Source of the DNA: a bacterium
GTDB taxonomy: Bacteria > Zixibacteria > MSB-5A5 > WJJR01
Length of the DNA: 64,000 bases
Direction of reading: 5' to 3'
Assembly (NCBI GenBank): GCA_021813505.1
Contig: JAKAKI010000008.1
Location: 1 to 64,000 of the forward strand
Under the pieces are notes generated by a model. It was not told the origin of the DNA, made no database searches, and saw only the letters and a program-made list of their open reading frames with translations. A program made the translations under genes and the position numbers. Position 1 is the stretch's first letter, and each line of letters begins with the position of its first letter. Below are positions 15,423 to 34,394 of this stretch, piece by piece.

Positions 15423-15458
15423 GGGATCTGCATTCTTCCCATTTCTCCCACAACTCCC

Positions 15459-17363
15459 ATGCCGTATGCAGATAGCCATCCTCTTTTCGAGCGCCTCCGC
15501 CGCGGGCCGATCCTCGCTGATGGGGGCATGGGGACGATGCTGTACCGCCGGGGCGTGCCGTTCGACCGATGCTTCGATGAGCTGAATCTCTCCGATCCCA
15601 AACTCGTTCAACGCATCCACCTGGACTACCTCCACGCCGGTGCCCAACTGATCGAAACGAATACCTTTGGCGGAAACTGTATTCGGCTGTCCTCCCACGG
15701 ATTCGAAGGTAAAGTCCGCGAGATCAACCTTCATGGCGTGAAGGTGGCGCGTGAGGCGCGTGAGATCGAAGGCACCGATGCCCTTGTCGCTGGTGCGATT
15801 GGTCCCTTGGGCAAATCACTGGCTCCGCTGGGGTCGGTGACTCCGGACGAAGCGCGGGCACTGTTCGCCGAGCAGGCTGCCGCACTCCTTGAAGGCGGTG
15901 TCGACCTCTTTATCATCGAGACCATGTCCGACCAGAGGGAGATGGCTGAGGCGATTGCCGCGGTTCGGTCGGTCAGCCGCCTGCCGATCATCGCACTGAT
16001 GACATTCACCGATGAAGGCGTGACCCTGGCTGGGAAAGGGCCTGAGGAGACAGGCCGCTTTCTCGAGTCGACCGATGCCGACGTGATCGGCGCCAATTGT
16101 TCGGTCGGTCCGCAAGGAATGCTGGAGTGGATCTACCGACTTGCGAGGGTCGTGCGCAAGCCCGTTACGGCCATGCCCAACGCCGGCATGCCGCGGCTGG
16201 TCGATGGCCGGTTTGTGTACTCGGCCTCGCCGGAATATTTCGCCAGTGTCGCGAGCGCGTTTCTGGCCAACGGGGCGCAGATCATCGGCGGGTGTTGCGG
16301 GACTACGCCCGATCACATCGCCGCCATGGCCGCGGTCCTGCGCAGTGCTCCGCCGGTCAAACCCGCGCCGACGGTGACTGTGTCGCCTGCCGCCGAGACC
16401 GCTGTCCCGCCGGCAGAGCCCGATGAAAAGGGCGGCTCACGTTTTGCGCAGAATCTCAGGAAGACGTTTCAGATCTCAGTCGAACTTGATCCGCCCAAGG
16501 GAACAAATCCGGCCAAGCTCCTCGAGGGTGCCCGTCTGTGCCGCCGTCATGGGGTCAATGCCGTAAACATCGCCGATTCCCCCATGGCACGAGTGCGGAT
16601 GAGCGCGATGGCGGTGGCCGCGCTGATTGAGCGCGACATCGGCATCGAAACCGTCCTGCACTTCACCTGCCGTGACCGCAATTTGATGGGGATTCAGTCC
16701 GATCTGATCGGCGCCCACGCGCTCGGTATTCGCAACATCCTGGCGATCACCGGTGATCCTCCCTCGGTGGGCGATTACCCCCACGCCACCGGTGTCTACG
16801 ACATCGATGCCATCGGCCTCACCCGCGTCGTTGCCGGATTGAATGCCGGCAAAGACTACGCCGGGGCATCCATCGGACAGGCCACGAACTTCGCCATCGG
16901 GGTCGCACTCAATCCCACGGCACTCGACTGGGAGAAGGAGGAAGCGCGCTTCCGCCGCAAGGTTGAAGCCGGCGCACACTTCGCCTTCACCCAACCCCTT
17001 TATGACCTTGACCCACTTTGGCGATGCCTGGAGGCAATCTCAAGGATTCGCATTCCTGTCTTCCTCGGACTCCTGCCGCTCATGTCGTATCGCCATGCGC
17101 TCTATCTGAACAACGAGGTGCCGGGAATCAGCGTGCCCGCAGCGATTCTTCAGCGCATGGAGAAGGCGGGGGATCAAGGCGCTGAGGTAGGAATCGAAGC
17201 CGCCCGGAATCTCCTGGAGAGAGCGCGACCTTCCGTGCAGGGCACTTACCTGATGCCGTCCTTCGGCCGGTACGAGACCTGCCTGCGCGTCATCGAGGGA
17301 ATGAACCCAGCATCGGATCATCCAGTAGCCTTACCTGACTCAGAGCACTTGCGCGTGTGTTGA
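15459..17363 (+). CDS. Bifunctional homocysteine S-methyltransferase / methylenetetrahydrofolate reductase
   Basis: N-terminal Hcy-binding barrel ('LADGGMGTMLYRRG', 'IGANCSVGPQGML', 'IIGGCCGTTPDHIAAM') fused to an MTHFR barrel ('VELDPPKGTNP', 'HFTCRDRNLMGIQSDLIGAHALGIRNILAITGDPP'). Confidence 0.95.
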   Translation: MPYADSHPLFERLRRGPILADGGMGTMLYRRGVPFDRCFDELNLSDPKLVQRIHLDYLHAGAQLIETNTFGGNCIRLSSHGFEGKVREINLHGVKVAREAREIEGTDALVAGAIGPLGKSLAPLGSVTPDEARALFAEQAAALLEGGVDLFIIETMSDQREMAEAIAAVRSVSRLPIIALMTFTDEGVTLAGKGPEETGRFLESTDADVIGANCSVGPQGMLEWIYRLARVVRKPVTAMPNAGMPRLVDGRFVYSASPEYFASVASAFLANGAQIIGGCCGTTPDHIAAMAAVLRSAPPVKPAPTVTVSPAAETAVPPAEPDEKGGSRFAQNLRKTFQISVELDPPKGTNPAKLLEGARLCRRHGVNAVNIADSPMARVRMSAMAVAALIERDIGIETVLHFTCRDRNLMGIQSDLIGAHALGIRNILAITGDPPSVGDYPHATGVYDIDAIGLTRVVAGLNAGKDYAGASIGQATNFAIGVALNPTALDWEKEEARFRRKVEAGAHFAFTQPLYDLDPLWRCLEAISRIRIPVFLGLLPLMSYRHALYLNNEVPGISVPAAILQRMEKAGDQGAEVGIEAARNLLERARPSVQGTYLMPSFGRYETCLRVIEGMNPASDHPVALPDSEHLRVC

Positions 17364-29003: not shown

Positions 29004-29050
29004 GTTGATTGACAGGCGATCCTGCAATTGTGATATTTGAAGTTGCCGCT

Positions 29051-29674
29051 ATGAGACAGGATGGGAATTATGGGAAGAATGCGAAGAATGGGAATCATAC
29101 TTCCCATAGCTCCCATCCCCCCGAACGCCTCCTCCCCCCAAGAGGCGACTACCGCACACTTCTCTCCTTCCAGAAGGCCGAGGTGGTCTACGACGTCACA
29201 TTCCGTTTCGCGCACAAGTTCCTTTCTAAGGGCGACCGCACTATCGACCAGATGATCCAGTCGGCGCGATCCGGCAAGAAGAACATCCTCGAAGGCAGCA
29301 AGGCCGGTCTGACTTCCAAGGAAACCGAAATCAAGCTGACAAACGTCGCGCGAGCCAGCCTGGAGGAGCTGTTGGACGACTACCGGGACTTCCTGCGTGC
29401 ACGCGACCTGCGGATTTGGGATATGAACTCACGGGAGGCCCGCTACGTTCGCGCACTAGGCCGCAATACGCCGCAGACGTTCGAGCTCTACCGCGAGTTT
29501 GTGGAATCACGTCCCCCCGAAGTCGTCGCGAATATCGCCCTCTGCTTGATCCACCAAACGAATTACCTGCTTGATCAGCAGCTTCGCCGCCTCGAGCAGG
29601 ACTTCGTCAAACAAGGCGGCCTCCGCGAGCGCATGACCCGAGTCCGCTTACAGCACCGCTCCTGCCACTCATGA
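29051..29674 (+). CDS. Four-helix-bundle (S23/IVS-protein-like) protein
   Basis: 'YRTLLSFQKAEVVYDVTFRFAHKFLSKGDRTIDQMIQSARSGKKNILEGSKAGLTSKETEIKLTNVARASLEELLDDYRDFLRAR'; true start uncertain. Confidence 0.78.
   Translation: MRQDGNYGKNAKNGNHTSHSSHPPERLLPPRGDYRTLLSFQKAEVVYDVTFRFAHKFLSKGDRTIDQMIQSARSGKKNILEGSKAGLTSKETEIKLTNVARASLEELLDDYRDFLRARDLRIWDMNSREARYVRALGRNTPQTFELYREFVESRPPEVVANIALCLIHQTNYLLDQQLRRLEQDFVKQGGLRERMTRVRLQHRSCHS
29059..29098. repeat. Left 40-bp inverted repeat flanking the four-helix-bundle gene
   Basis: GGATGGGAATTATGGGAAGAATGCGAAGAATGGGAATCAT; its reverse complement matches 29671-29710 at 36/40. Confidence 0.9.
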
Positions 29675-29710
29675 TTCCCATCCTTCCCATCCTTCCCATA
29701 ATTCCCATTC
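29671..29710. repeat. Right 40-bp inverted repeat flanking the four-helix-bundle gene
   Basis: ATGATTCCCATCCTTCCCATCCTTCCCATAATTCCCATTC; 36/40 to the reverse complement of 29059-29098. Confidence 0.9.
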
Positions 29711-29736
29711 TTCGGCGGTCGCACCTCCGCGACACC

Positions 29737-30249
29737 ATGCACGCCCTGGCCGTAGTCGTCGCTGTGCTCGCGCTTCAGCTCGACGGCTGCACACTCATCG
29801 GCTTCGGCATCGGCCTGAACCACGATGCCCACAAACCAAAGTCCGGGCCGATTCCAGGCGAGATGTGGGACTCGATTCCCATCGGCGCCCAAGTCATCGT
29901 CCAGTTCGCCGATGGCGCTCAAAGCAAAGGGCTGTTCTTTGGCAGCGAACCTCTCACCAGAGAGGGGTATGATTCCGTCGACGTGCTCTGGCTCGAAAAG
30001 CATAGCTTGCCGCCAATGACAGTCGCGCCTGGCGAAACTCCTTCTCTGACAGTCTTGACTCTCCAGACCAAGACATCGTTGGAGTATATTCCGAAAAACC
30101 GCATTGCCGGCATCTCATACCCAGGCAAGCATGGTGCCTTGGTGGGACTGGCCATTGGCTTTGGGGTTGACCTCGTGTGCCTCGGTCTAACGTATCTATT
30201 CCTGACGCTGCTCGAGGATTCCTGGGGGGATGAATCCTGGGGAATCTGA
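29737..30249 (+). CDS. Hypothetical protein, possible lipoprotein
   Basis: 'MHALAVVVAVLALQLDGCTLIGFGIG' signal-like start. The ORF-track start at 29671 lies inside the inverted repeat and is probably not the real start. Confidence 0.5.
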   Translation: MHALAVVVAVLALQLDGCTLIGFGIGLNHDAHKPKSGPIPGEMWDSIPIGAQVIVQFADGAQSKGLFFGSEPLTREGYDSVDVLWLEKHSLPPMTVAPGETPSLTVLTLQTKTSLEYIPKNRIAGISYPGKHGALVGLAIGFGVDLVCLGLTYLFLTLLEDSWGDESWGI

Positions 30250-34362: not shown

Positions 34363-34394
34363 GGTCCACTTCGTCCACTAGGTCCACTTAGTCC

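Follow-up and report, generated by a model that had tools for sequence, protein, structure and literature searches.

A four-helix-bundle gene at positions 29051-29674 of the window (the whole stretch of DNA analysed, 64 kb in length) is flanked by inverted tandem arrays of a 9-bp unit, and the locus is best called a free-standing, intervening-sequence-like element. On balance, it is probably a selfish element composed of the four-helix-bundle gene and its own cognate short-unit array. This reading follows from an array period that depends on the protein subfamily (7 vs 9 bp), the inverted arms around genes of the canonical branch, the solitary arrays dispersed through genomes, and the empty sites at which arrays are left over. 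The features concerned are:

29058-29098, minus strand: 5' arm of four 9-bp units, TTCCCATNN on the minus strand and thus ATGGGAANN on the plus strand
29096-29118, plus strand: short inner array that faces the 5' arm, the pair forming a local hairpin
29051-29674, plus strand: four-helix-bundle "suffix" gene, assigned from family matches and the open reading frame (ORF)
29671-29711, plus strand: 3' arm of four (TTCCCATNN) units, the first of which overlaps the stop codon of the gene
15431-15460, plus strand: degenerate solitary array with the same unit as the window arms

The arms are 41 nt each, 90% complementary and 572 nt apart, which confirms the inverted repeat originally predicted at 29059-29098 and 29671-29710. 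Both are 9-bp tandem arrays, (ATGGGAANN)n upstream of the gene and (TTCCCATNN)n downstream of it; with the inner array as the second arrow, the layout of the locus is <- -> gene ->. Exactly two strong arrays, the two arms, emerge when the window is scanned for periods 5-12, and shuffles of the window contain no strong period-9 array. When up to 2 mismatches are allowed, TTCCCATNNTTCCCAT occurs 9 times in the window vs 0.36 times in shuffles. The one ORF between the arms is open from 29009 to 29674, with a plausible ATG at 29051 and a stop codon (29672-29674) on which the 3' array starts. The conserved core of the protein begins at 29129, and the 5' arrays supply the coding sequence of its N-terminal extension. 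In RNA folding, a stem that encloses the entire ORF is predicted for the whole element (z=-4.5), and the 5' hairpin of arm and inner array gives z=-4.4 in the window and z=-8.4 in the sister species. The gene is placed between a CvpA gene and a lipoprotein-like gene, not inside an rRNA gene, and 29058/29711, the positions at which the original prediction would have a target-site duplication sought, show none. The downstream lipoprotein-like ORF (29671-30249) is itself open through the 3' array (MIPILPILPIIPIL...); its true start is likely ATG 29738, and thus automatic start calling would prepend a spurious peptide encoded by the array. As at the window 3' arm, a host-gene stop codon directly precedes several solitary arrays (L375, L378, L117).

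The protein belongs to the suffix-type branch of its family. It passes the cut-offs of the NCBIfam models TIGR04258 (four helix bundle suffix; E=5e-25, 87.1 bits, cut-off 40) and TIGR02436 (four helix bundle protein; 2.5e-6, 27.6 bits, cut-off 24), and falls below the gathering score of PF05635 (23S_rRNA_IVP; 24.3 bits vs 33.8). Thus the lone four-helix-bundle gene predicted between the repeats is indeed present, and inverted bounding of such genes recurs across the family. Relatives of the protein form ring-shaped pentamers or, as Avd, serve retroelements as an accessory protein. The structural model is a confident helical bundle (pLDDT 88.9). Foldseek gives no match at E=0.001 or better; its best matches include the family structure Xcc0516 (2gsc; probability 1.00, TM 0.81 relative to the target), 2rld from the S23 family, and a retroelement Avd (8ub7_B; probability 0.97). 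A sequence search of solved structures gives no meaningful match, and neither the defence-system nor the phage-protein libraries contain one for the window protein; the canonical paralogue matches the PHROG family "Avd protein of DGR". The only domain matches of the window protein are to four-helix bundles, with no Y1 transposase domain, and no reverse transcriptase is present among the scanned neighbours (YqeY, CvpA, a FlgD-type secreted protein, MutS2, DnaG and HAD).

The genome from which the window is taken (G000) contains four four-helix-bundle genes, each with a different array. On both sides of the window gene the unit is TTCCCATNN; C70 is likewise enclosed by TATAGGTCC arrays, with one further set on the far side of its region; the arrays of the canonical gene C89 are inverted and consist of the 7-bp unit GGACNAA; and C55 has a short inverted repeat within the gene. 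Exact copies of TTCCCATNNTTCCCAT number 16 in this genome vs 0 for the reversed pattern. It had been proposed to test whether the arm repeat also flanks other four-helix-bundle genes, and this is not the case: the other copies of the window unit are solitary arrays, ten in all, and a fixed 40-mer as a genome-wide flank was therefore rejected. The similar motif noted at 15431-15460 is real, though degenerate. A 9-bp array of another unit, GTCCACTTN, fills the gap between the MutS2 stop and the DnaG start (34363-34394 of the window); this is the unit of a four-helix-bundle gene present only in the sister species.

In that sister species (G001, the sole congener compared), the window gene occupies the same place, with recognisable arms and a protein that is 82% identical, so that the window copy is fixed and syntenic in both congeners. 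In three other relatives (G003, G007 and G008) the CvpA-MutS2 distance is just ~140-170 bp; in G002 the corresponding site is a 1.6-kb gap without a four-helix-bundle gene. Given the short gap in the former three, the arrival of the window gene, together with the two genes downstream of it, most likely predates the split of the two congeners. Most solitary TTCCCAT arrays lie at identical sites in both congeners and differ in length, and one (G000:C4) is absent from the sister species; in general, array copy number differs between the sister genomes. Close homologues of the protein, up to 82% identical, are found in several phyla.

The association of arrays with these genes is a property of the family. 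It was assessed in 51 non-redundant canonical (TIGR02436) loci from the phylum of the window, 81 non-redundant suffix-type (TIGR04258) loci from many phyla, and 19 separate plasmid loci, mostly cyanobacterial. Beside canonical genes, self-match at period 7 reaches 0.42 (background 0.255), and beside suffix genes, self-match at period 9 reaches 0.38 (background 0.285). Both signals peak within 100 bp of either gene end, are symmetrical, and are lost by ~150 bp; periods 6 and 12 show no rise near the genes, and thus the periodicity is not codon structure. An array or inverted repeat is found at 47/50 canonical and 34/76 suffix loci, and almost never in control segments 600-900 bp away. Inverted arms are present at 40/50 canonical loci, vs 1.7% in a null that pairs arms across loci. 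Fewer than half of the suffix loci have arms, which are inverted at 20 and direct at 24 of the 76. Since the array thresholds were chosen while the first sets were in view, the plasmid set is the cleaner test, and in it inverted arms occur at 15/19 loci and period 7 stands at 0.449 vs 0.264. Canonical arrays are polarised by strand, with a purine fraction of 0.70 upstream vs 0.37 downstream, where they are pyrimidine-rich; suffix arrays show no strand polarity.

The unit sequence varies from locus to locus at a constant period. Among suffix loci, arrays become more alike as protein identity rises (rho 0.38, 0/2000 permutations), also when only cross-phylum pairs are considered (rho 0.39, 0/2000 permutations). 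TCCCAT units accompany 9 of the 14 relatives that share 70% identity or more with the window protein, which come from seven phylum-level groups, and CCTAT units accompany 16 of the 27 that are 55-70% identical. The canonical set shows a weak relation of this kind, and compensatory change between the arms of close orthologues is not significant.

Many copies sit between the genes of operons. Several families of the class have a canonical copy with a tRNA gene on one side and the SRP RNA gene on the other (L265, L249, L253, L259, L241 and L067, also L226); the units of these copies differ, and the 7-bp arms are still recognisable. A 23S rRNA gene had been considered as this recurrent site and was rejected, since Rfam identifies tRNA and SRP RNA. 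On cyanobacterial plasmids (L336, L337, L346, L334), canonical genes with arrays separate cas6 from cas4, cas10 from cmr3, and the subunit genes of ribonucleotide reductase from one another.

Genes of the family can be present or absent at conserved sites, and arrays may remain where the gene is absent. The canonical gene L217 is absent at its conserved site in same-genus genomes, of which G029 retains a solitary hairpin of the L217 unit and G114 has a different palindrome. That unit, GTAGACAGTAGACAG, occurs 19 times in G029 and 22 times in G075, never reversed. At the site of L267, both G075 and G029 lack the gene and keep a solitary GTAGACA array and part of the right arm; at the site of L238, G015 lacks the gene and has about half an array. 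A suffix-type gene of the sister species (G001:C142) is absent at the matching site in G000, where the flanks align on both sides. Its array is inside the gene, and thus the ends of an array need not coincide with those of the element. The neighbour of this copy is a RAYT-like gene (Y1_Tnp; L086, 3679-4263, minus strand) accompanied by REP-like palindromes (GGCCCTGACCCCCGGTCAGGGC). Empty sites, suggested as something to look for in sister genomes, are thus found for other genes of the family; the window copy is syntenic in the congener.

The congeners also allow the abundance of a unit to be compared with the presence of its cognate gene. The sister species yielded neither the canonical gene of the window's genome (L001) nor an orthologous site for it. 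The unit of this gene, GGACNAA, has 38 matches at ~12 places in G000 and 2 matches in G001, whereas TTCCCAT, whose cognate gene is in both, has 16 and 12. The contrast gives a Fisher p of 0.0004 by matches, although matches within one array are not independent; counted by loci (12 vs 2), p=0.13, which is not significant. At nine aligned GGACNAA sites the arrays of G001 are shorter, degenerate or absent, a comparison that is biased one way, as the sites were picked from strong G000 arrays, and that sets a genome of 93% completeness (G001) against one of 97%. At one of the nine, G001 has a 9-bp GTCCACTTN array, the unit of its own suffix gene.

Several known systems resemble the window locus in part. 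Some 23S rRNA intervening sequences (Coxiella, Leptospira; PMC4990558) likewise carry an S23/IVP four-helix-bundle ORF inside complementary, stem-forming ends, and they are sporadic and horizontally spread; in Coxiella, the ends pair over 28 bp, and RNase III cleaves the resulting stem in vitro (PMC4990558). The window copy differs from these in its position between protein genes, in arms built of short tandem units, and in the dispersal of its unit through the genome as solitary arrays. RAYT/REPIN systems (PMC3116915) share a single-copy gene beside a repeat with dispersed relatives, each gene having its own repeat type. However, RAYT is a Y1 transposase and its repeat is the REP palindrome, whereas the window locus has a four-helix-bundle protein without a transposase domain and a tandem array of fixed period. 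The orphan heptamer families, GGGAATC in Xanthomonas, GGGGA(C/T)T in Nostoc and TAACTGA in Beggiatoaceae, are also 7-bp tandem units that are intergenic and dispersed, with 70 inverted pairs in X. campestris; no partner protein is named for them (PMC4692102, PMC4679880), and Xcc0516 is not mentioned in PMC4692102. The connection with four-helix-bundle genes drawn here concerns genomes other than those of these species, and nothing that ties heptamer arrays to such genes was found in the searched open-access papers. Avd of diversity-generating retroelements (DGRs) has the same fold (8ub7_B, 0.97), but the scanned neighbours of the window gene include no reverse transcriptase. DGRs are not known to include tandem arrays.

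As a selfish element, the locus would work through binding of the four-helix-bundle protein to its own repeated unit, with a spacing that depends on the subfamily (7 nt for canonical, 9 nt for suffix proteins). Such binding may allow the gene and its arms to spread jointly to new intergenic sites, and may sustain solitary arrays of the unit at other places in the genome. In the transcript, the inverted arms would pair into a stem that encloses the ORF, like that of the 23S rRNA intervening sequences, and this stem, together with RNA processing, could make the insert tolerable between host genes. The arms, the subfamily-specific period, the co-variation of unit and protein in the suffix branch, the solitary arrays and the presence or absence of genes at conserved sites support this model, as do the tracking of array abundance with the cognate gene in one species pair, the predicted RNA fold around the entire ORF, and the structural resemblance to Xcc0516/S23 and Avd. 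Against it are the lack of a target-site duplication, the fixation of the window copy in both congeners, the low share of suffix loci with arms and their nearly equal division into inverted and direct, the weak unit-protein relation of the canonical set, the non-significant compensatory change and locus-level contrast, the choice of strong G000 arrays as the starting point of the site comparison, and the fact that no movement enzyme is encoded.

It is conceivable, but unlikely, that the element acts at the level of RNA only, with arms selected as a transcript stem for RNase III-type processing or mRNA autoregulation, a protein that binds its own RNA, and no DNA mobility beyond ordinary horizontal transfer. 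The predicted folds of the whole element and the 5' hairpin, the strand polarity of canonical arms, the long-kept copy between tRNA and SRP RNA genes, the many copies between operon genes and the in vitro cleavage of the Coxiella sequence (PMC4990558) all favour a role in the transcript. Against it, gene-less solitary arrays are dispersed in dozens of copies, suffix arrays lack polarity and are often direct repeats, and the covariation of arms in close orthologues is not significant. Improbable, and already disfavoured, is the proposal that arrays are intergenic by-products of polymerase slippage, in or near which the genes merely sit or to which they are attracted, with a protein unrelated to the arrays. 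Slippage has been discussed as the origin of heptamer arrays (PMC4692102, PMC4679880) and would suit the copy-number differences between the sister genomes; yet the period is set by the protein subfamily, the arms are inverted far above the null, the unit tracks the protein across phyla, and control segments are almost free of arrays.

The original prediction that TIR-like, precise ends mark a gene that moves as a cassette is partly supported. Genes of the family are present or absent at conserved sites, and the window protein has close homologues in several phyla, but the arms are tandem arrays, a target-site duplication is lacking and the window copy is fixed. It is very improbable that the arms serve as terminal inverted repeats for an ordinary transposase acting in trans. 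The inverted boundaries and the presence or absence of genes would fit, as would the Y1-type transposase gene and REP-like palindromes beside one sister-species copy; however, arm sequence changes at nearly every locus while the period stays constant, and some arms are direct or within the gene. A classical TIR cassette was rejected because of the variable arms and the lack of a target-site duplication.

Beyond the selfish element favoured here, the four-helix-bundle proteins may, more tentatively, actively write, lengthen or seed arrays with the period of their subfamily (7 or 9), and would then represent a class of mobile DNA without a recognisable recombinase. If true, array writing would account for the orphan heptamer repeats of Xanthomonas, cyanobacteria and Beggiatoaceae as well. 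The results suggest that the protein and its repeats are one selfish genetic partnership. Although many bacteria carry four-helix-bundle (S23/IVP) proteins, the function of the family is not settled, and short heptamer arrays have for years been described with no protein partner; a rule that joins protein subfamily to period and, in the suffix branch, unit to protein opens both the family and the arrays to direct tests.
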